A stretch of DNA of 64,000 nt from an uncultured Clostridia bacterium (GTDB taxonomy: Bacteria > Bacillota > Clostridia > Christensenellales > UBA3700): the NCBI GenBank assembly GCA_945872615.1, contig CAMBZZ010000002.1, positions 138,271-202,270 on the forward strand. The letters run 5' to 3'. The position numbers and the translations under genes were made by a program. The first letter of the stretch is position 1. The number at the start of each line of letters is the position of its first letter. This document shows positions 3,331 through 22,502 of this stretch, piece by piece. The notes beneath the pieces are model-generated. The model was given only the letters and a program-made list of their open reading frames with translations. It did not search any database and had not been told where the DNA came from.

Positions 3331-4221
3331 ATGAAATCGGGATTCGTATCGGTAGTGGGCAAGCCTAACGTGGGTAAGTCCACTTTAATAAATACCTTGG
3401 TGGGAGAAAAGGTGTCCATCGTAAGTTGGAAACCGCAAACCACCAGAGATAAAATTTTGGGCATAGTCAACGGCGAGGGATACCAAGTCGTTTTGGCGGA
3501 TTGCCCCGGTGTGCATACGCCGAAAAACGCCCTCAGCGAATATATGATGAAGTCGGTGGGTAGCGCGGTGGAAGGCGTGGACGCTTATATCTACGTGATT
3601 GCGTGCAGTAAAAAAATCGACGACGTCGATATGCAATATATCAACAAGTTTATAAGTAGCGGAATACCGCTTTTTATCGTAATCAACAAGTGCGACGAGG
3701 TTAAACCCGAAGCCATCGGACAAAAAATCGACAGCCTCAAAGACCTAAAAGGCGTCAAAGCCATTATCCCCGTCAGCGCTTTGACGGGCAAAAATTGCGA
3801 CTTGCTCTTGAAAGAGTTGGTAAACGTGTTGCCCGAAGGTGTGGCGTATTACGATACCGATTCTTATACCGACAAGACGGTTAGATTTATGGTAGGGGAG
3901 ATAGTGAGAGAAAAGGCTCTGCGTTTACTCGGAGACGAAATCCCTTACGGTATATGCGTAGCCGTCAATAGATACGAAGAACGCGACGACGGCTTGGTGA
4001 GCATTGACGCCGACATTGTGTGCGAAAAACAAGCCCATAAGTCTATCGTCATAGGTAAAGGCGGCGCTATGATAAAAAAGATTTCTACCATGGCTCGGCA
4101 AGATATAGAAAAACTCGTCAACGCCAAAGTCTATCTAAACCTATTCGTCAAAGTCAAAGAGAATTGGCGTGATAGTGCTAGTTTGGTGGGGCTGATGGGA
4201 TATAATATAAAAGACCTATGA
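3331..4221 (+). CDS. era: GTPase Era
   Basis: 296-residue ribosome-assembly GTPase that binds the 3' end of 16S rRNA. G1 GKPNVGKST (residues 10-18), G3 DCPG, G4 NKCD and a C-terminal KH domain with the VIGKGGAMIKKI loop are all visible; length is standard. It follows ybeY after a single base with an AGAGGATAAA ribosome site. A family B repeat begins at the base after the TGA stop, so the 3' end of this operon transcript carries that structured element. Confidence 0.96.
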   Translation: MKSGFVSVVGKPNVGKSTLINTLVGEKVSIVSWKPQTTRDKILGIVNGEGYQVVLADCPGVHTPKNALSEYMMKSVGSAVEGVDAYIYVIACSKKIDDVDMQYINKFISSGIPLFIVINKCDEVKPEAIGQKIDSLKDLKGVKAIIPVSALTGKNCDLLLKELVNVLPEGVAYYDTDSYTDKTVRFMVGEIVREKALRLLGDEIPYGICVAVNRYEERDDGLVSIDADIVCEKQAHKSIVIGKGGAMIKKISTMARQDIEKLVNAKVYLNLFVKVKENWRDSASLVGLMGYNIKDL

Positions 4222-4346
4222 TTTGACGGCGGATATGCATCGTTATACTTTGTCGAGCGGCAATTTTTCTTGCTCACATACGCAATAGTATGCTCGCTTC
4301 GATAAAATCACCGCTTTTCGCGTCTAACTCGCACATTCACCGTAAA
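4222..4346 (+). repeat. Family B hairpin repeat, copy 1 (after era)
   Basis: Starts with TTTGACGGC directly after the era stop and ends in a degenerate CACCGTAAAAT. It shares internal blocks TTTGTCGAGCGG, GCTCACATACGC, GTATGCTCGC and TTCGCGTCTAACTCGCAC with the copies after kdgK and dinB. The best copy (20078-20205) defines the element. Confidence 0.75.
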
Positions 4347-4349
4347 ATG

Positions 4350-4705
4350 GGGGATAATCGGATAAGCCGTGAGAGCCACCTTCTCGAACACAAGAGGACG
4401 GCTTCAAAAGGATTGAGATTGCCACAGCGTTTTGAAAACGCTTCGCAATGACAATATAGGTCAATCCCCAACCCGACTTTTGTCGGGAGCCCCTTTTGCA
4501 CAAAGGGACCTTTAATATTGTTGAGATTGCCACGCTATGGCACAAGTGCCTTGCTCGCAATGACAAAGAGGTCAATCTCTCCGTCTTGTCTGAGGGCAAG
4601 CCACCTCCCTTTGCACAAAGGAGGCACAAAAGGATAGAGATTGCCACAGTCGCTACGCTCATCTTGGGTAACGCAAAACGTACACGGCGCAATGTTAAAA
4701 AATAA
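4350..4705 (+). repeat. Family A repeat island 1
   Basis: About 350 bp without a credible gene, built of shuffled family A blocks. Visible blocks are two GATTGCCAC...GCAATGACA units, a CCTCCCTTTG/CAAAGGAGG inverted repeat at about 4602-4622, a related CCCCTTTTGCACAAAGGG hairpin, and a CCGTCTTG...AGGGCAAG pair. Reading frames crossing it are low-complexity translations of the repeat and were not called. Confidence 0.75.
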
Positions 4706-8538: not shown

Positions 8539-8931
8539 AGGGCAATTCTTCCGGCAACTGCGTTGACACCTCCCTTTGCACAAAGGAGGCTTTTTGCAAG
8601 GTTGAGATTGCCACGCTGCGGCATCTTTGCCTTGCTCGCAATGACAGCACTACTTGCTCTACGCTCCGCTTTGCTAACGCAAAATGCACTGGGGCAATGA
8701 CATACGGATTGAGATTCCCACGCCTTACAAGAAAGGCTCGGAATGAAGTAAGGGCAATTCTTCCGTCAACTGCGTTGACACCTCCCTTTGCACAAAGGAG
8801 GCTTTTTGCAAGGTTGAGATTGCCACGCTGCGGCATCTTTGCCTTGATCGCAATGACAGCACTACTTGCTCTACGCTCCGCTTTGCTGTCGCAAAATTAC
8901 TGGGGCAATGACATACGGATTGAGATTCCCA
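8539..8931 (+). repeat. Family A repeats, tandem duplicate of about 182 bp (period 212 bp)
   Basis: Unit 1 (8539-8720) and unit 2 (8751-8931) are nearly identical. Each runs from AGGGCAATTCTTCCG through the CCTCCCTTTGCACAAAGGAGG hairpin and GATTGCCACGCTGCGGCATC to ACATACGGATTGAGATTCCC. No gene is supported in either strand. Confidence 0.85.
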
Positions 8932-9130
8932 ATGTGCACAACGGAATGACAAAACATTTGAGATTGCGGGGTTACGCTACGCTCCACCGCAATGACAATA
9001 GGGCAATCCCTCCGTCTCGGCAAAGCCGAGCCACCTCCCTTTACACAAAGGAGGCTCGAAAAGATAGAGATTCCTACGCTCGCTTTGCTCGCTCTGAATG
9101 ACAGCACTACTTGGTCTGCGCTCCACCGCA
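8932..9130 (+). repeat. Family A repeat, third unit of the island
   Basis: A shorter, diverged unit with CTCGGCAAAGCCGAG and CCTCCCTTTACACAAAGGAGG hairpins and a GAGATTCCTACGCTCGC...GAATGACA block. It ends 8 bp before the 3' end of the minus-strand GH2 gene, so it may form the 3' region of that transcript. Confidence 0.75.
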
Positions 9131-16522: not shown

Positions 16523-17083
16523 ATGGAAAAATATATCCCTATAGTAGTGGTAGAAAATTTGCAAGACGCAGACAAAATTTTGGGTGCGTTGAAAGAGGTG
16601 GGTATCAACACCGCCGAGATTACCTTTCGCACTTCGTGTGCCGTTGAGGCGATTGAGTTTGCCAAAAAGAAATATCCCGATATGTGCGTTGGCGCGGGAA
16701 CGGTCATCAACGCCAAGCAGTGCGATAGAGCTATAGACGCGGGTGCGGGATTTATCGTGTCTCCCGGACTGAGCGCGCAAGTGGCTGAGGTGTGTCGGCG
16801 CCGCGGCGTTCCGTACTATCCCGGGTGCGTAACTCCGACCGAGATTATGGCGGCACTAGACTTAGGATTGACGACACTCAAGTTTTTTCCGTCGAGTATC
16901 TACGGAGGGCTCGACGCTCTCAAAGCATTGGCGGCACCATTCCCGCAAGTGAAGTTTATACCTACGGGCGGTGTGGATAGCAGTGATATGCAACGCTACC
17001 TCGACTACGAAAAGGTGGTCGCCGTGGGCGGTAGCTTCTTGGTCAAAGAGGCATTGAAAAAAACGGAGAAGAGATATGACTAA
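16523..17083 (+). CDS. eda: 2-keto-3-deoxy-6-phosphogluconate aldolase
   Basis: 186-residue class I aldolase splitting KDPG to pyruvate and glyceraldehyde 3-phosphate. It has AEITFRTSCAVEAI with the catalytic Glu-Thr-Phe-Arg region, VGAGTVINAKQ and the Schiff-base lysine in the TLKFFPSS segment, then PTGGVDSS for phosphate binding. About 20 residues shorter than E. coli Eda but complete. It follows uxuB by one base and overlaps kdgK by 8 nt. Confidence 0.95.
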   Translation: MEKYIPIVVVENLQDADKILGALKEVGINTAEITFRTSCAVEAIEFAKKKYPDMCVGAGTVINAKQCDRAIDAGAGFIVSPGLSAQVAEVCRRRGVPYYPGCVTPTEIMAALDLGLTTLKFFPSSIYGGLDALKALAAPFPQVKFIPTGGVDSSDMQRYLDYEKVVAVGGSFLVKEALKKTEKRYD

Positions 17084-18098
17084 AGTAGTTACTTTTGGAG
17101 AATTGATGCTGAGACTTGCCCCCGAGGGGTATTATAGGCTCTTTCAGAACGACCGCATGTCGGCAACCTTCGGCGGGGGAGAAGCCAACGTTGCCGTTTC
17201 ACTCGCTAATTTTGGCTTGGATAGCGTGTTCGTAAGCAAGTTGCCTCTCAATGCCGTGGGACAAGCCGGGGTAAACTCCTTGAGAAGTCTAGGCGTGGAT
17301 ACTTCCGATATAGTGAGAGGCGGCGATAGAACGGGTATCTATTTCGTCGAAAAGGGCGCGTCGCAGAGGGGCAGCGTGTGCATATACGATAGAGCGGGCT
17401 CTGCACTTTCGCTTGCATCGACCTTCGACTTCGATTGGACGAAAATTTTGGAGGGCGCGGATTGGTTTCACTTTACGGGTATTACGCCCGCGCTCGGCGA
17501 CAACGTGGCGAAAATTTGCGAAGAGGCTTGCAAAATTGCTAAGGCTATGGGCGTGAAAATTTCTTGCGACCTCAATTACCGCGCAAAACTGTGGAGTAGA
17601 GAAAAGGCGCGCGCCGTGATGAGCGAACTTTGCAAATACGTCGACGTGTGCATCGCCAACGAGGAAGACGCCAAGGACGTCTTCGGCATAGAAGCCGATG
17701 CCACCGACATCTACGGCGGTAAACTCAACCACCAAGGCTATAAAACCGTCGCTATGCAACTTGCCGAGCAGTTCGACTTTGAAAAAGTCGCCATAACTCT
17801 CCGCGGCTCTGTGTCCGCCAGCGACAACGATTGGTCTGCTATGCTCTACGACGGCAACGACTTCTATTTTTCTAAGCAACACCGCTTGCATATCGTTGAC
17901 AGAGTAGGCGGCGGAGATTCCTTCGGCGCGGGGCTAATTTATTCTCTCGTCACCGGTAAAACGAGTAGCGAAGCCATAGAATTTGCCGTTGCAGCCTCCG
18001 CCCTCAAACATTCCATCGAAGGCGACTACAATAGGGTCACCGTTGCGGAAGTGGAGAGGTTGGTGAGTGGGGATGGGAGTGGGCGTGTGCAACGCTAA
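17076..18098 (+). CDS. kdgK: 2-dehydro-3-deoxygluconokinase (PfkB family)
   Basis: 340-residue ribokinase-fold sugar kinase phosphorylating KDG to KDPG, the substrate of the preceding aldolase. Typical elements are GELMLRLAPEGYYRL at the N-terminus, FGGGEANVAVSLA, and the anion-hole/catalytic motif DRVGGGDSFGAGL near residue 270. It completes uxaC-uxuA-uxuB-eda-kdgK. No terminator of the usual kind follows; a family B hairpin element begins two bases after the TAA. Confidence 0.94.
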   Translation: MTKVVTFGELMLRLAPEGYYRLFQNDRMSATFGGGEANVAVSLANFGLDSVFVSKLPLNAVGQAGVNSLRSLGVDTSDIVRGGDRTGIYFVEKGASQRGSVCIYDRAGSALSLASTFDFDWTKILEGADWFHFTGITPALGDNVAKICEEACKIAKAMGVKISCDLNYRAKLWSREKARAVMSELCKYVDVCIANEEDAKDVFGIEADATDIYGGKLNHQGYKTVAMQLAEQFDFEKVAITLRGSVSASDNDWSAMLYDGNDFYFSKQHRLHIVDRVGGGDSFGAGLIYSLVTGKTSSEAIEFAVAASALKHSIEGDYNRVTVAEVERLVSGDGSGRVQR

Positions 18099-18099
18099 A

Positions 18100-18219
18100 T
18101 TTGACGGCATATCTGCTTCGTAATACATTGTCGAGCGGAGATTTTGCTCAGTCACGTACGCTCAAGTACGCTCCTGTCGCAAAAACTCCGCTCTTCGCGT
18201 CTTACTCGCACCTATGACG
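18100..18219 (+). repeat. Family B hairpin repeat, copy 2 (after kdgK)
   Basis: Begins TTTGACGGCATATCTGCTTCGTA, identical in its first 20 bases to the copy after dinB, and keeps the inner stem CGGAG...CTCCG and the CGTAC/GTACG apex. The right terminal repeat is diverged (CTATGACGCGAG). Confidence 0.8.
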
Positions 18220-18319
18220 CGAGAGCCTTACTACTTAGCAACTTATTATATAACGAGGCTGATGCTCCCTTACGCCGTCCTCGTTCTCTTCGCCTGACTT
18301 GTAATTTCGGCGTTTAGTG

Positions 18320-18440
18320 AGTTTTTGTATGGGCGTTATGCTTTGTCGACTTTACGTTTTTGCTTAGGTCACGCACGCGCATAGTACGCTCCCCACGCAA
18401 AAGCCGCAGTCTTCGCGCCTAACTCGCACCTATGACGCGA
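18320..18440 (+). repeat. Family B repeat, diverged copy 3
   Basis: Contains ATGCTTTGTCGAC, GTTTTTGCT, GCGCATAGTACGCTCC, GCAAAAGCCG and TTCGCGCCTAACTCGCAC in the family order. Like copy 2 it is followed by CTATGACGCGAGAGCCTTA.TACTTAG, suggesting a duplication. The stretch 18220-18319 between them holds only degenerate fragments of the family and no gene. Confidence 0.65.
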
Positions 18441-18465
18441 GAGCCTTAATACTTAGTTGCTAATA

Positions 18466-18735
18466 TAGGACAACCCTTCCACCACTTCGTGGTCCCCCTT
18501 CCCTTGCACAGGGACGGCTTTTAATAGGATGAGATTCCCACGCCTTGAAACAAGGCTCGGAATGACACACTGCATATTCTACGCTCCATCGCAATGACAA
18601 TATGTCAATCCTTCCGTCTTGCCTAACGGCAAGCCACCTCCCTTTGCACAAATGAGGCGCAAAAGGAAGAGATTCCCACCCTACGCTTTGCTAACGCAAA
18701 ATGTACACAACGGAATGACAGAACTACTTCCAACA
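18466..18735 (+). repeat. Family A repeat island 3
   Basis: Blocks CCTTCCCTTGCACAGGGACGG, GATGAGATTCCCACGCC...CGGAATGACA, GCAATGACAA, CCGTCTTGCCTAACGGCAAG and CCTCCCTTTGCACAAATGAGG in the order seen elsewhere. No gene is supported. Confidence 0.75.
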
Positions 18736-18808
18736 CCTTTTGACCGCGTAGCTACGAGCTCGACAATGTATTGCGAAGTATATACACGGTCAAAATACAA
18801 ACAAATGT

Positions 18809-18844: not shown

Positions 18845-20074
18845 ATGGACAAGGTGATTTTGCATTGTGACGCCAACAATTTTTATGCGAGTGTGGCGTG
18901 TATGTTGGACAAAAGTCTCGAGGGTAAGTGCGTGGCGGTGGCTGGAGACCCCACCAAGAGGCACGGTATAATTTTGGCTAAAAATCAAAGAGCCAAGGAG
19001 ATGGGCGTCAAGACGGGCGACGTGATTTGGGAGGCGCAAAAAAAGTGCCCCGACCTCGTGTTGGTTGCTCCGCGCTACGATATGTACGTCAAGTATTCAG
19101 ATATATTGTTTGACATCTACACGCAGTACACCGATAGGGTAGAGCCCTTTGGTATAGACGAGTGCTGGTTGGACGTGACGCATTCGCTCAAGTTGTTCGG
19201 AAGCGGAGAAAAGATAGCCAACACTCTTAGAGAGAGAATAAAAAAGGAAGTAGGAATTACTATCTCGGTGGGGGTGTCGTTTAACAAAATCTTTGCCAAA
19301 CTCGGCTCGGATATGAAAAAGCCCGACGCTACCACCGTCATCAGTAGAGAAAACTACCGCCAAAAGACGTGGAATTTGCCCGTCGGCGACATGCTGATGA
19401 TAGGTCGCAAGACTTGCGCCAAACTGGAGTTGATGGGGGTGAGAACGATAGGCGACCTTGCCAAGACCAACGTAGATGTATTGAAGAGAAAGTTTGGCAT
19501 CAACGGCGAAAAAATGTATCAAAACGCCAACGGGATAGGCGACGATGAGGTAAGACTGTATTATCAACCGCATATCCCTAAGAGCATAAGCAACGGCACG
19601 ACTATGCCCAAGGACGTGACGGATATGAGCGAAATAAACGCCGTGCTTACCGCATTGAGCGAAATGGTGGCGATAAGAATGCGTAGGTACGACTTTGAGG
19701 CTAGTGGCGTGGGTGTGGCTATACGATACAACGACTTTAGCGGAATTTCGCAACAAGCAAGACTATTGGTGCCTACCGCCAACGCGGGCGTAATTAGGGA
19801 TAACGCGGTGCAGTTGCTCAATCAAGTCAGACGACTCGACAAGCCTATTAGGGGACTATACGTCTTTGCGTGGGACCTTAGCAACGACAAAGAGAGACAA
19901 GCCACCCTATGGGACGACCTAAGACAAAGCGAAAAGAAGAGTAGGTTGGATAAAAGTATAGATTGCCTAAGAAACAAGTACGGCTACAACGTGGTGCAGT
20001 CGGCAAGAGTGCTCGAACATCCATATCTTTGCGGGCAGTTGGAGGATAGTGATTTTAGACCATTTAAGAAATAA
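18845..20074 (+). CDS. dinB: DNA polymerase IV
   Basis: 409-residue Y-family translesion polymerase. Catalytic acidic residues lie in HCDANNFYASVA (near residue 8) and GIDECWLDVT; finger, thumb with the helix-hairpin-helix MGVRTIGDLAKT, and the little-finger domain are complete. The ATG at 18845 is the conserved start; longer in-frame starts extend into the promoter. It appears to be made from a leaderless transcript. It stands alone between two repeat islands. No LexA or DinR box was recognised. Confidence 0.95.
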   Translation: MDKVILHCDANNFYASVACMLDKSLEGKCVAVAGDPTKRHGIILAKNQRAKEMGVKTGDVIWEAQKKCPDLVLVAPRYDMYVKYSDILFDIYTQYTDRVEPFGIDECWLDVTHSLKLFGSGEKIANTLRERIKKEVGITISVGVSFNKIFAKLGSDMKKPDATTVISRENYRQKTWNLPVGDMLMIGRKTCAKLELMGVRTIGDLAKTNVDVLKRKFGINGEKMYQNANGIGDDEVRLYYQPHIPKSISNGTTMPKDVTDMSEINAVLTALSEMVAIRMRRYDFEASGVGVAIRYNDFSGISQQARLLVPTANAGVIRDNAVQLLNQVRRLDKPIRGLYVFAWDLSNDKERQATLWDDLRQSEKKSRLDKSIDCLRNKYGYNVVQSARVLEHPYLCGQLEDSDFRPFKK

Positions 20075-20077
20075 CGC

Positions 20078-20205
20078 TTTTGACGGCATATCTGCTTCGT
20101 AATACTTTGTCGAACGGAGATTTTTGCTCAGTCACGTACGCCCAAGTACGCTCCTGTCGCAAAAACTCCGCTCTTCGCGTCTTACTCGTACCTATGCCGT
20201 CAAAA
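20078..20205 (+). mobile_element. Family B MITE-like hairpin element, best copy (after dinB)
   Basis: 128 bp bounded by perfect 13-bp terminal inverted repeats TTTTGACGGCATA / TATGCCGTCAAAA. Inside, CGGAG-A-TTTTTGC pairs with GCAAAAA-CTCCG (one bulge) and CGTAC pairs with GTACG at the apex, so the whole element can fold as one long interrupted hairpin. It starts 4 nt after the dinB stop. It has no coding capacity, and calling it mobile is inference from the terminal repeats and copy number. Confidence 0.7.
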
Positions 20206-20320
20206 CTATTCTAACAAACTTTACTTTTGGGCAACTTTTCTTGCTCACGTACTCAATATAGTACGCTCCCTCACGCCGTCCTCACTCTCCTTGTCTAACT
20301 CGCATCTCCGCCGTCAAATG
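20206..20320 (+). repeat. Family B repeat, diverged copy 5
   Basis: Carries TTGCTCACGTACTCAATATAGTACGCTCC and TCTAACTCGCATCTCCGCCGTCAAA, the right-hand end of the family, while the left end is degenerate. A further fragment GCGGATATGCGTCATTATG lies at about 20352-20371. Confidence 0.6.
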
Positions 20321-20553: not shown

Positions 20554-20584
20554 CAAAAAAACTCGATACGTATCGAGTTTTTTT
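20554..20584. terminator. Palindrome with A/T arms, likely bidirectional terminator
   Basis: Perfect palindrome around CTCGATACGTATCGAG with seven A before and seven T after. It can form a hairpin followed by a T run on either strand and lies downstream of both dinB (plus) and the XRE gene (minus). It is also the most symmetric copy of the short palindrome family. Confidence 0.65.
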
Positions 20585-20639
20585 GCTATTTATTATGTGA
20601 TTTTGGATAAATATTATTTTGGATAAAGAAGAAAGAAAA

Positions 20640-20963: not shown

Positions 20964-22502
20964 ATGAAGAAGAGAATCGTACTCGTATTGTGTATGGTGA
21001 CGTTGTTGATTACGGCAATGGCATTGGCGGTGGCGTGTGGTACCAAGGATAAAGCACCAGCAGACGACAATAGCGGAATAACTAATGGTGGTGGCAACGA
21101 CGAAAATGGCGACAACAGCGGTGGTGGCAATGGTGATGTTGACGATAGTGGTGAAGAGTTGGAACTTGTCGACATATCGCAATATCTGACCTACGAACTC
21201 AACGAAGACGGCAATAGCTATGCAGTGACAGGATTGACGGAAGAAGGATATGTACTTGCGGGAAATACAAAAAATATAGATTTTTTAGGAAAAACAGTAA
21301 AAAGCAAATTGATTATTCCTACTCTATATCAAGGCAAGACCGTGACCGCTATTGCAGATAGTGCGTTTAGTGGTTGCTGGAGTATAACAAAAATAAGTAT
21401 TCCCAACAATGTTACTATTATAGGAAAAGAAGCGTTTTTAGGTTGTGAAAGCCTAGTCAACATTACTTTATCAAGCAAAGTGACAAAAATAGCAGACGGT
21501 GCCTTCTTAAGTTGTTGGAGTATAAAGAGTATAACCATACCTGACGGTGTGACGAGCATAGGAGATTGGGCATTCTCTTATTGCAGTAGTTTAACAAGCA
21601 TAACCATACCGGGCAGCGTGACGAGCATTGGAGATGCGGCATTCTATAATTGCTTTAGCCTAATAGAAGTATATAATAAGTCTTCTCTATCTATAGTTGC
21701 AGGAAGTAGTGATTATGGCTACGTAGGCTTTTATGCTAAGAACGTATATACCGAAGAAGGCGGAAGTAAACTAAGCACCGATAAAAACGGCTATGTCATT
21801 TATGTGGACGGAGACGATATAATATTGGTGAAATATATGGGCAATGATACCGATTTGACTTTGCCTATCGACATAACTGAAATCAATCAAGGTGCGTTAT
21901 ATCTCTGTCATTACTTGACAAGTATAACCATCCCCGTTGGCGTGACGAGCATAGGAGATTGTGCATTCTCTGGTTGTTATAGTCTAATAGAAGTATACAA
22001 TAAGTCTTCCCTCGATATAGTAGCAGGAAGTAGTGATTATGGCGAAGTAGCTCGTAATGCAAAGAACGTATATACCGAAGAATGCAGAAGTAAATTGAAT
22101 ATAGATGAAAACGGTTACATTATCTATACCGACGGAGAAGACAACATATTGGTAAAATATTTAGGCAAGGATACTGACTTAACTTTGCCAAACGGTATTA
22201 CAGGAATCAATCAAGGAGCATTTCTTGGTCGTACTAATTTAACAAGCATAAGCATATCAGAGAGGGTGACGAGGATTGGACTTTTGGCGTTCAGTGGTTG
22301 CGGTAGCTTGACAAACATAAACATTCCAAAAAGCGTAACGAGTATTGAAAGTAGTGCATTTAATGTTTGCTCTGGCTTGATAAGAATCGAATTCCAAGGA
22401 ACACAAGCAGAGTGGGAGATGATAAGTAAAGATAGTTATTGGGATAATAATACGGGACAATATACAATATATTGCACCGACGGAGATATTGCTAAAGAAT
22501 AA
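20964..22502 (+). CDS. BspA-type leucine-rich repeat lipoprotein
   Basis: 512 residues. A signal peptide ends in lipobox LAVAC-G (Cys near 25), then a Gly/Asn/Asp-rich linker (residues 30-60), then repeats of the LRR_5/BspA class with the recurrent pattern F-x-x-C-x-S-L-T-S-I-x-I-P-x-x-V-T-S-I-G-x-x-A-F. Two long units (about residues 230-300 and 335-405) share an inserted EVYNKSSL-IVAGSSDYG segment. Such proteins are displayed on the surface and often bind host or bacterial ligands. More AT-rich than neighbouring housekeeping genes, and controlled by the adjacent XRE protein through a promoter operator. AAGGAGAG ribosome site. Confidence 0.88.
   Translation: MKKRIVLVLCMVTLLITAMALAVACGTKDKAPADDNSGITNGGGNDENGDNSGGGNGDVDDSGEELELVDISQYLTYELNEDGNSYAVTGLTEEGYVLAGNTKNIDFLGKTVKSKLIIPTLYQGKTVTAIADSAFSGCWSITKISIPNNVTIIGKEAFLGCESLVNITLSSKVTKIADGAFLSCWSIKSITIPDGVTSIGDWAFSYCSSLTSITIPGSVTSIGDAAFYNCFSLIEVYNKSSLSIVAGSSDYGYVGFYAKNVYTEEGGSKLSTDKNGYVIYVDGDDIILVKYMGNDTDLTLPIDITEINQGALYLCHYLTSITIPVGVTSIGDCAFSGCYSLIEVYNKSSLDIVAGSSDYGEVARNAKNVYTEECRSKLNIDENGYIIYTDGEDNILVKYLGKDTDLTLPNGITGINQGAFLGRTNLTSISISERVTRIGLLAFSGCGSLTNINIPKSVTSIESSAFNVCSGLIRIEFQGTQAEWEMISKDSYWDNNTGQYTIYCTDGDIAKE

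Follow-up and report, generated by a model that had tools for sequence, protein, structure and literature searches.

Hairpin Copies in the Analyzed Window

Using a covariance model, six copies of a hairpin element were found in the window (the whole 64-kb stretch of DNA that was analyzed). One of them, on the minus strand, is a short derivative with a deletion, and another is a decayed fragment (Table 1). Three copies directly follow the stop codons of era (TGA, 4219-4221), kdgK (TAA, 18096-18098) and dinB (TAA, 20072-20074), starting at about 4222, at about 18100 and at 20078, respectively. All three are located on the plus strand, and the distances of 0, 1 and 3 nt to the stop agree with the initial annotation (0, 1 and 3-4 nt).

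Table 1. Positions of hairpin copies, host genes and terminator in the window.
Feature	Position	Strand	Remarks
era, host gene	3331..4221	+	full length compared to relatives (aligned 1-296)
Hairpin copy directly behind era	4221..4348	+	covariance model 123 bits; era loci of relatives element-free
kdgK / PfkB-family kinase, host gene	17076..18098	+	
Hairpin copy directly behind kdgK (PfkB family)	18099..18225	+	covariance model 125.2 bits
More decayed second copy between kdgK and dinB	18312..18443	+	covariance model 82.3 bits
Internal-deletion derivative upstream of dinB	18738..18795	-	58 nt, both ends retained; covariance model 41.3 bits
dinB (IMS family polymerase), host gene	18845..20074	+	start may be 18809 or 18845
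Hairpin copy behind dinB	20078..20205	+	covariance model 139.4 bits; starts 3 nt past TAA
Decayed fragment after the dinB copy	20222..20295	+	covariance model 19.8 bits
Intrinsic terminator beyond the dinB element array	20554..20585	+	14-bp stem and T-run; strong, bidirectional

The dinB copy is bounded by a perfect 13-bp inverted repeat (TTTTGACGGCATA at 20078-20090 and TATGCCGTCAAAA at 20193-20205) and its 128 nt fold into a single hairpin (−48.2 kcal/mol; z −7.8 compared to shuffled sequences), both as initially described. The ends of the kdgK copy are chimeric, with TTTGACGG on the left and GACGCGAGAG on the right. The earlier statement that none of these genes has an ordinary terminator holds for era and kdgK, near which no terminator was found, but not for dinB, where a strong one lies beyond the element. 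In an Rfam scan of the window only tRNAs exceeded the gathering threshold, and the hairpin element matches no Rfam family.

Other repeats are present in the window as well. The gaps behind the elements (8539-9124, 4360-4700 and 18480-18720) are packed with mosaics of further short repeats consisting of GAGATTgCCACG...GCAATGACA and CCTCCCTTTGCACAAAGGAGG modules, the first of which shows no stop-codon placement. Imperfect tandem repeats of ~69 and 324 nt (21528-22311) are located within an ORF (20964-22502) that looks like a surface protein of the leucine-rich-repeat type.

Size and Fold of the Element Family in the Source Genome

For the source genome of the window (G000, 1.68 Mb), 28 places with the element were found using BLAST. 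A covariance model built from 22 copies resulted in 51 matches, of which about 46 are complete or almost complete in length. The consensus folds as a single long, imperfect hairpin; its apex (TCACGTAC-loop-GTACGCTC) is conserved, and the arms co-vary and are otherwise variable. Fixed across the copies are the apex TCACRTAC-loop-GTAYGCTC and several pyrimidine-rich mismatches, which are purine-rich on the opposite strand. Two-sided compensatory changes, swaps of A-U to U-A among them, were identified in 19 of 30 pairs.

The terminal ends pair inside each copy and differ between copies (TTTTGACGG, CTCTCACGG, TTCAAACGCC), and outer ends were found to be switched between copies (TTTTGAC/GTCAAAA, CTCTCAC/GTGAGAG and TTCAAACGCC/GGCGTTTGAA). 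Unlike in MITEs of DDE transposons, the terminal inverted repeats are therefore not fixed in sequence. Partial gene conversion occurs among the copies, as seen from the chimeric arms of the kdgK copy and of a second one (L231).

Folding is more favorable for the strand opposite to the mRNA, in 42 of 45 copies using RNA parameters and in 44 of 45 using DNA parameters. The number of G-U wobbles (34 compared to 45 in the sense of the other strand) does not single out one strand as the functional one. Since such wobbles are rare on either strand, the hairpin fold may matter as DNA.

Placement of the Element at Stop Codons

Genes were called by codon usage in the stretches around the copies, which are located in draft MAG assemblies. 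Of the 45 copies with a score of more than 60 bits, 17 have their start at −7 to +5 nt relative to an in-frame stop codon on the same strand. Uniform placement within the same gaps, combined with a random orientation, would give 0.58 (P about 7e-22); the mirror arrangement was found for none. When only correctly oriented copies are considered, 17 of 33 are located at a stop (0.82 expected, P 2e-19). These P-values assume uniform placement and independent copies, and two DAHP synthase paralogues may share one event. At least one further stop-adjacent copy, behind the gene for a small HTH protein (C9:12846), is outside the gene-caller output. As a control, two other repeat motifs from the same arrays were analyzed, and 0 of 65 and 0 of 98 were within 40 nt of a stop. 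These values confirm the previous description of a MITE-like hairpin family with a directional and tight placement behind stops that is not explained by random insertion, and extend it well beyond the copies described initially.

A large number of copies is located within arrays or other repeats and not near stops. An effect of T-runs is weak in this genome, with four copies behind T-runs and two in the mirror arrangement; a stricter test for a stem plus T-run resulted in one and one.

The source of the stop codon varies, being the element's own TTTGA in some cases and a native TAA, TAG or TGA just before the element in others. The host genes are ordinary and complete, including those for Era, DinB, PfkB kinase, SMC, GyrA, PGI, AdhE, DAHP synthase and others. 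A creation of the stops by truncation of genes was considered and rejected: the era stop is native, MnmE has its usual C-x-G-K tail and the Pfam domains are complete.

A separate case is a 1348-aa ORF (L091:16-4062 on contig C6 of G000), with matches to the large chain of carbamoyl-phosphate synthase and, following it, to diaminopimelate epimerase. The stop of this apparent CarB-DapF fusion is supplied by an element fragment.

Copies in Other Genomes and Phyla

Independent copies were selected from GTDB genomes solely by the DNA pattern of the hairpin apex. The pattern matches 37 stretches in Clostridia, Lentisphaerae, Sumerlaeia, an alphaproteobacterium and one Porphyromonas. Apart from the Porphyromonas stretch, nearly all of these form a hairpin of the same type. 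The match in Porphyromonas levii (L132) was rejected as a family member, since its fold differs; it is probably a chance match or a relic. For 17 of 36 apex-selected copies the distance between stop and apex was 37-57 nt (1.16 expected, P 2e-17, mirror 0). In 24 of 26 copies of other genomes, greater stability was found for the strand opposite to the gene.

One Lentisphaerae genome contains 33 matches. Of 26 analyzed copies, 10 start a few nucleotides from a stop (0.54 expected, P 1.6e-11, mirror 0), and four more are located 8-9 nt past a stop. Among the other complete copies of this genome, most are found directly behind terminator T-runs (six of 21, mirror 0), an effect that is clear only here, or 10-13 nt past tRNA-Lys and tRNA-Leu; another one comes after a 5S rRNA and its terminator. 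Two copies of sister clostridia were found 12 nt past a 5S rRNA. From the copies at stops, T-runs, tRNAs and 5S rRNAs, the rule is therefore a position behind the 3′-end of a gene, which is mostly the stop codon. In the sister genus g4, where part of the spacing was read by eye, the elements start with TAGGCGA and often supply the TAG stop. According to the initial annotation, copies at random distances and in random orientations elsewhere would speak against the placement; this was checked genome-wide and in other genomes, and the placement rule held. In viral contigs, plasmids and phages the element was not found at the sensitivities used.

Two further structures were observed outside G000. 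The flanks of three loci of sister clostridia (L207, L208 and L222) contain another recurring hairpin, TAATTTATACAATTTA-loop-TTAAATTGTATAAATTA, and one element copy is located directly behind such a hairpin. At G009:C13:28769-29045, an element is split near the apex by ~160 bp of other sequence (matches to positions 1-59 and 72-127 of the query).

Insertion History and Possible Functions at the Gene End

In 29 relatives era ends at about the same place without an element, and in most of them a short gap is followed by the same small downstream gene. For fba, five relatives have the stop, a short spacer and the native terminator, whereas in the four sister species G022, G004, G009 and G014 the element is located directly behind the stop, each time as a different subfamily. 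The last 900 nt of fba are 98.1% identical between G004 and G009, compared to 58.2% for their elements. For the G022 element, a copy with 96% identity is located behind another gene of the same genome. The site behind a hydrogenase gene is empty in G014, with TAA; in G022 and G009 a TAG runs into the element, and in G004 only the element edges are kept. In the element-free relatives the host gene is intact and the native downstream sequence is kept. By eye, a target-site duplication of TA or TAATA is possible at the fba and hydrogenase sites, and a consistent one was not identified. In tandem arrays the stop-proximal copy outscores the next copy in all six testable cases. This comparison indicates a recurrent insertion at the gene end, by which older copies would be displaced downstream.

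The empty sites and the unrelated subfamilies at the same fba stop speak for recurrent insertion targeted to the 3′-end rather than for a terminator function. A terminator role, as considered in the initial annotation, would be in accordance with a strong hairpin near gene ends. No T-runs were found in the right flanks after the hairpin, however, and the elements are not among the terminator-like sites. Moreover, native terminators persist downstream (dinB, fba), copies are also located behind terminators, tRNAs and 5S rRNA, and the mRNA strand is the one that folds worse (42 of 45). That the family is an ordinary intrinsic terminator or processing signal spread by duplication is thus hardly credible.

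Alternatively, insertion could be untargeted and selection could keep only stop-adjacent copies. The hairpin might be useful there, by protection of the mRNA 3′-end, as an RNase III site or in ribosome-coupled control, or it might be harmless because the terminating ribosome prevents folding. Ribosomes at a stop codon were described to repress hairpins a few bp downstream (PMC4824070), which fits this explanation, as do the compensatory changes that keep the arms paired and the persistence of copies at orthologous genes of several species. On the other hand, the same untranslated gaps tolerate extra copies 100-500 nt past the stop. In addition, about 25-30 nt of spacer were free before the native terminator of fba, yet in every one of the sister species the element is located at the stop. 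No ribosome is involved at T-runs and structural RNAs, and the copies behind them are placed just as tightly. Because of these tolerated distant copies, the unused fba spacer and the tightness at terminators and structural RNAs, selection is disfavored; the lower stability of the mRNA strand also speaks against it. We regard this explanation as rather unlikely. A putative role in mRNA stabilization or processing, which had also been suggested initially, looks secondary to targeted insertion.

Comparison with Known Repeats and Mobile Elements

It has been known for decades that small palindromic repeats occur close to gene ends, and their placement is usually attributed to tolerance. The termini of GTAG REPs often provide the TAG stop of flanking ORFs, close to the ORF 3′-ends (PMC3733652), and REP palindromes form a strand-specific hairpin with conserved mismatches (PMC8266576). 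Like REP/REPIN sequences of the GTAG and CGTC families, the element is an interspersed palindrome near ORF 3′-ends, and both its strand-asymmetric hairpin with conserved mismatches and the TAG supplied by the g4 elements would be consistent with a REP-like palindrome that a Y1 (RAYT) transposase moves in the form of single-stranded DNA. The element differs in its length of ~125-128 nt, compared to a stem of 20-40 bp with a GTAG/CGTC foot tag. Neither the aligned copies nor the starts of the sequences read contain such a tag. Furthermore, the apex is the conserved part, only one orientation is found and the start is mostly within about 6 nt of a stop. Y1_Tnp (PF01797) is missing in most element-rich genomes, being absent in G000 (51 copies), G004, G014 and G022, whose assemblies are about 94-96% complete. 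A movement by RAYT is therefore highly improbable and already largely refuted. Neither Y1_Tnp nor RVT_1 was found to be correlated with the copy number, and RVT_1 is absent from the element-rich genomes searched.

The BOX element of Streptococcus pneumoniae provides the extreme gene 3′-end and the stop codon in 36 cases, without evidence of truncation (PMC3049150). Compared by description, BOX is modular (boxA/B/C) and pneumococcal, whereas the element family spans phyla. ERIC/IRU sequences of enterobacteria are imperfect palindromes that are intergenic and probably transcribed; the element is likewise an imperfect palindrome and of similar length. To our knowledge, no stop-codon placement rule is known for ERIC. 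RU-1 is 127 bp in length (PMC2759123). No similarity to the enterobacterial ERIC sequence was seen: 5,426 E. coli genomes contain no match to the element at the sensitivity used.

The attC sites of integrons also have to be considered. The element resembles them as an imperfect hairpin with a more stable bottom strand (42 of 45 copies in G000, 24 of 26 elsewhere), located in sense orientation directly behind stops and forming tandem arrays, as would be expected if recombination sites of an integron-type tyrosine recombinase had remained behind genes. The conserved RYYYAAC/GTTRRRY end boxes and the variable apex of attC are not found; the apex is conserved and the outer ends are variable, which is the opposite. 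In addition, the hosts are scattered housekeeping genes (era, fba, gyrA, SMC) and not cassettes, and the era operon is syntenic with that of element-free relatives. An attC-like origin consequently has very little probability.

Group IIC introns and other elements insert behind terminators. This safe-haven placement is similar, but the element lacks an intron structure and an RT domain, and its main site is the stop codon. Taken together, the family belongs to the small interspersed palindromic repeats, with REP and BOX as partial precedents for stop-adjacent palindromes. In the open-licence papers searched, no description of the sequence family, its cross-phylum spread, the strict orientation or the recurrent insertion at the same stop was found.

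Proposed Mode of Insertion

Based on the sequence comparisons, the element is probably a mobile hairpin with a length of about 120-130 nt, neither coding nor autonomous, and with an insertion directed to gene 3′-ends. DNA alone cannot distinguish an in-frame stop from any other TAA, TAG or TGA; therefore, either insertion reads gene expression or selection filters the insertions. The favored reading is an insertion directed to the 3′-ends of genes or transcripts, for which an RNA-level step may be assumed. Targeting would then be read through gene expression, by an RNA 3′-end or a terminating ribosome rather than by a DNA motif, and the folded strand opposite to the mRNA would be the form that is recognized. 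New copies would be added at the gene 3′-end and older ones pushed away. More tentatively, the copies of several phyla could represent one class of mobile hairpins that insert by recognizing the end points of gene expression, either terminating ribosomes or RNA 3′-ends. We know of no bacterial mobile element whose targeting takes place at the RNA level or is coupled to translation.

In the family described here, it is the stop codon that appears as the address; this holds for several phyla, and sister species show recurrent insertions at one and the same stop. A targeted insertion would require something that reads a gene end that is unmarked by the DNA sequence alone. Such targeting would constitute a safe-haven strategy of a new type and could serve to place DNA behind genes without damaging them. 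It could also explain, in a way that can be tested, why stop codons are so often provided by the ends of REP and BOX elements.

A second preferred insertion point is present within the element itself. Newer copies with CTCTC ends are nested in older ones at one internal point (TGTGTCG^CTCTC), as found in G000 at C1:135190, C3:158313, C5:60811 and C3:195888.
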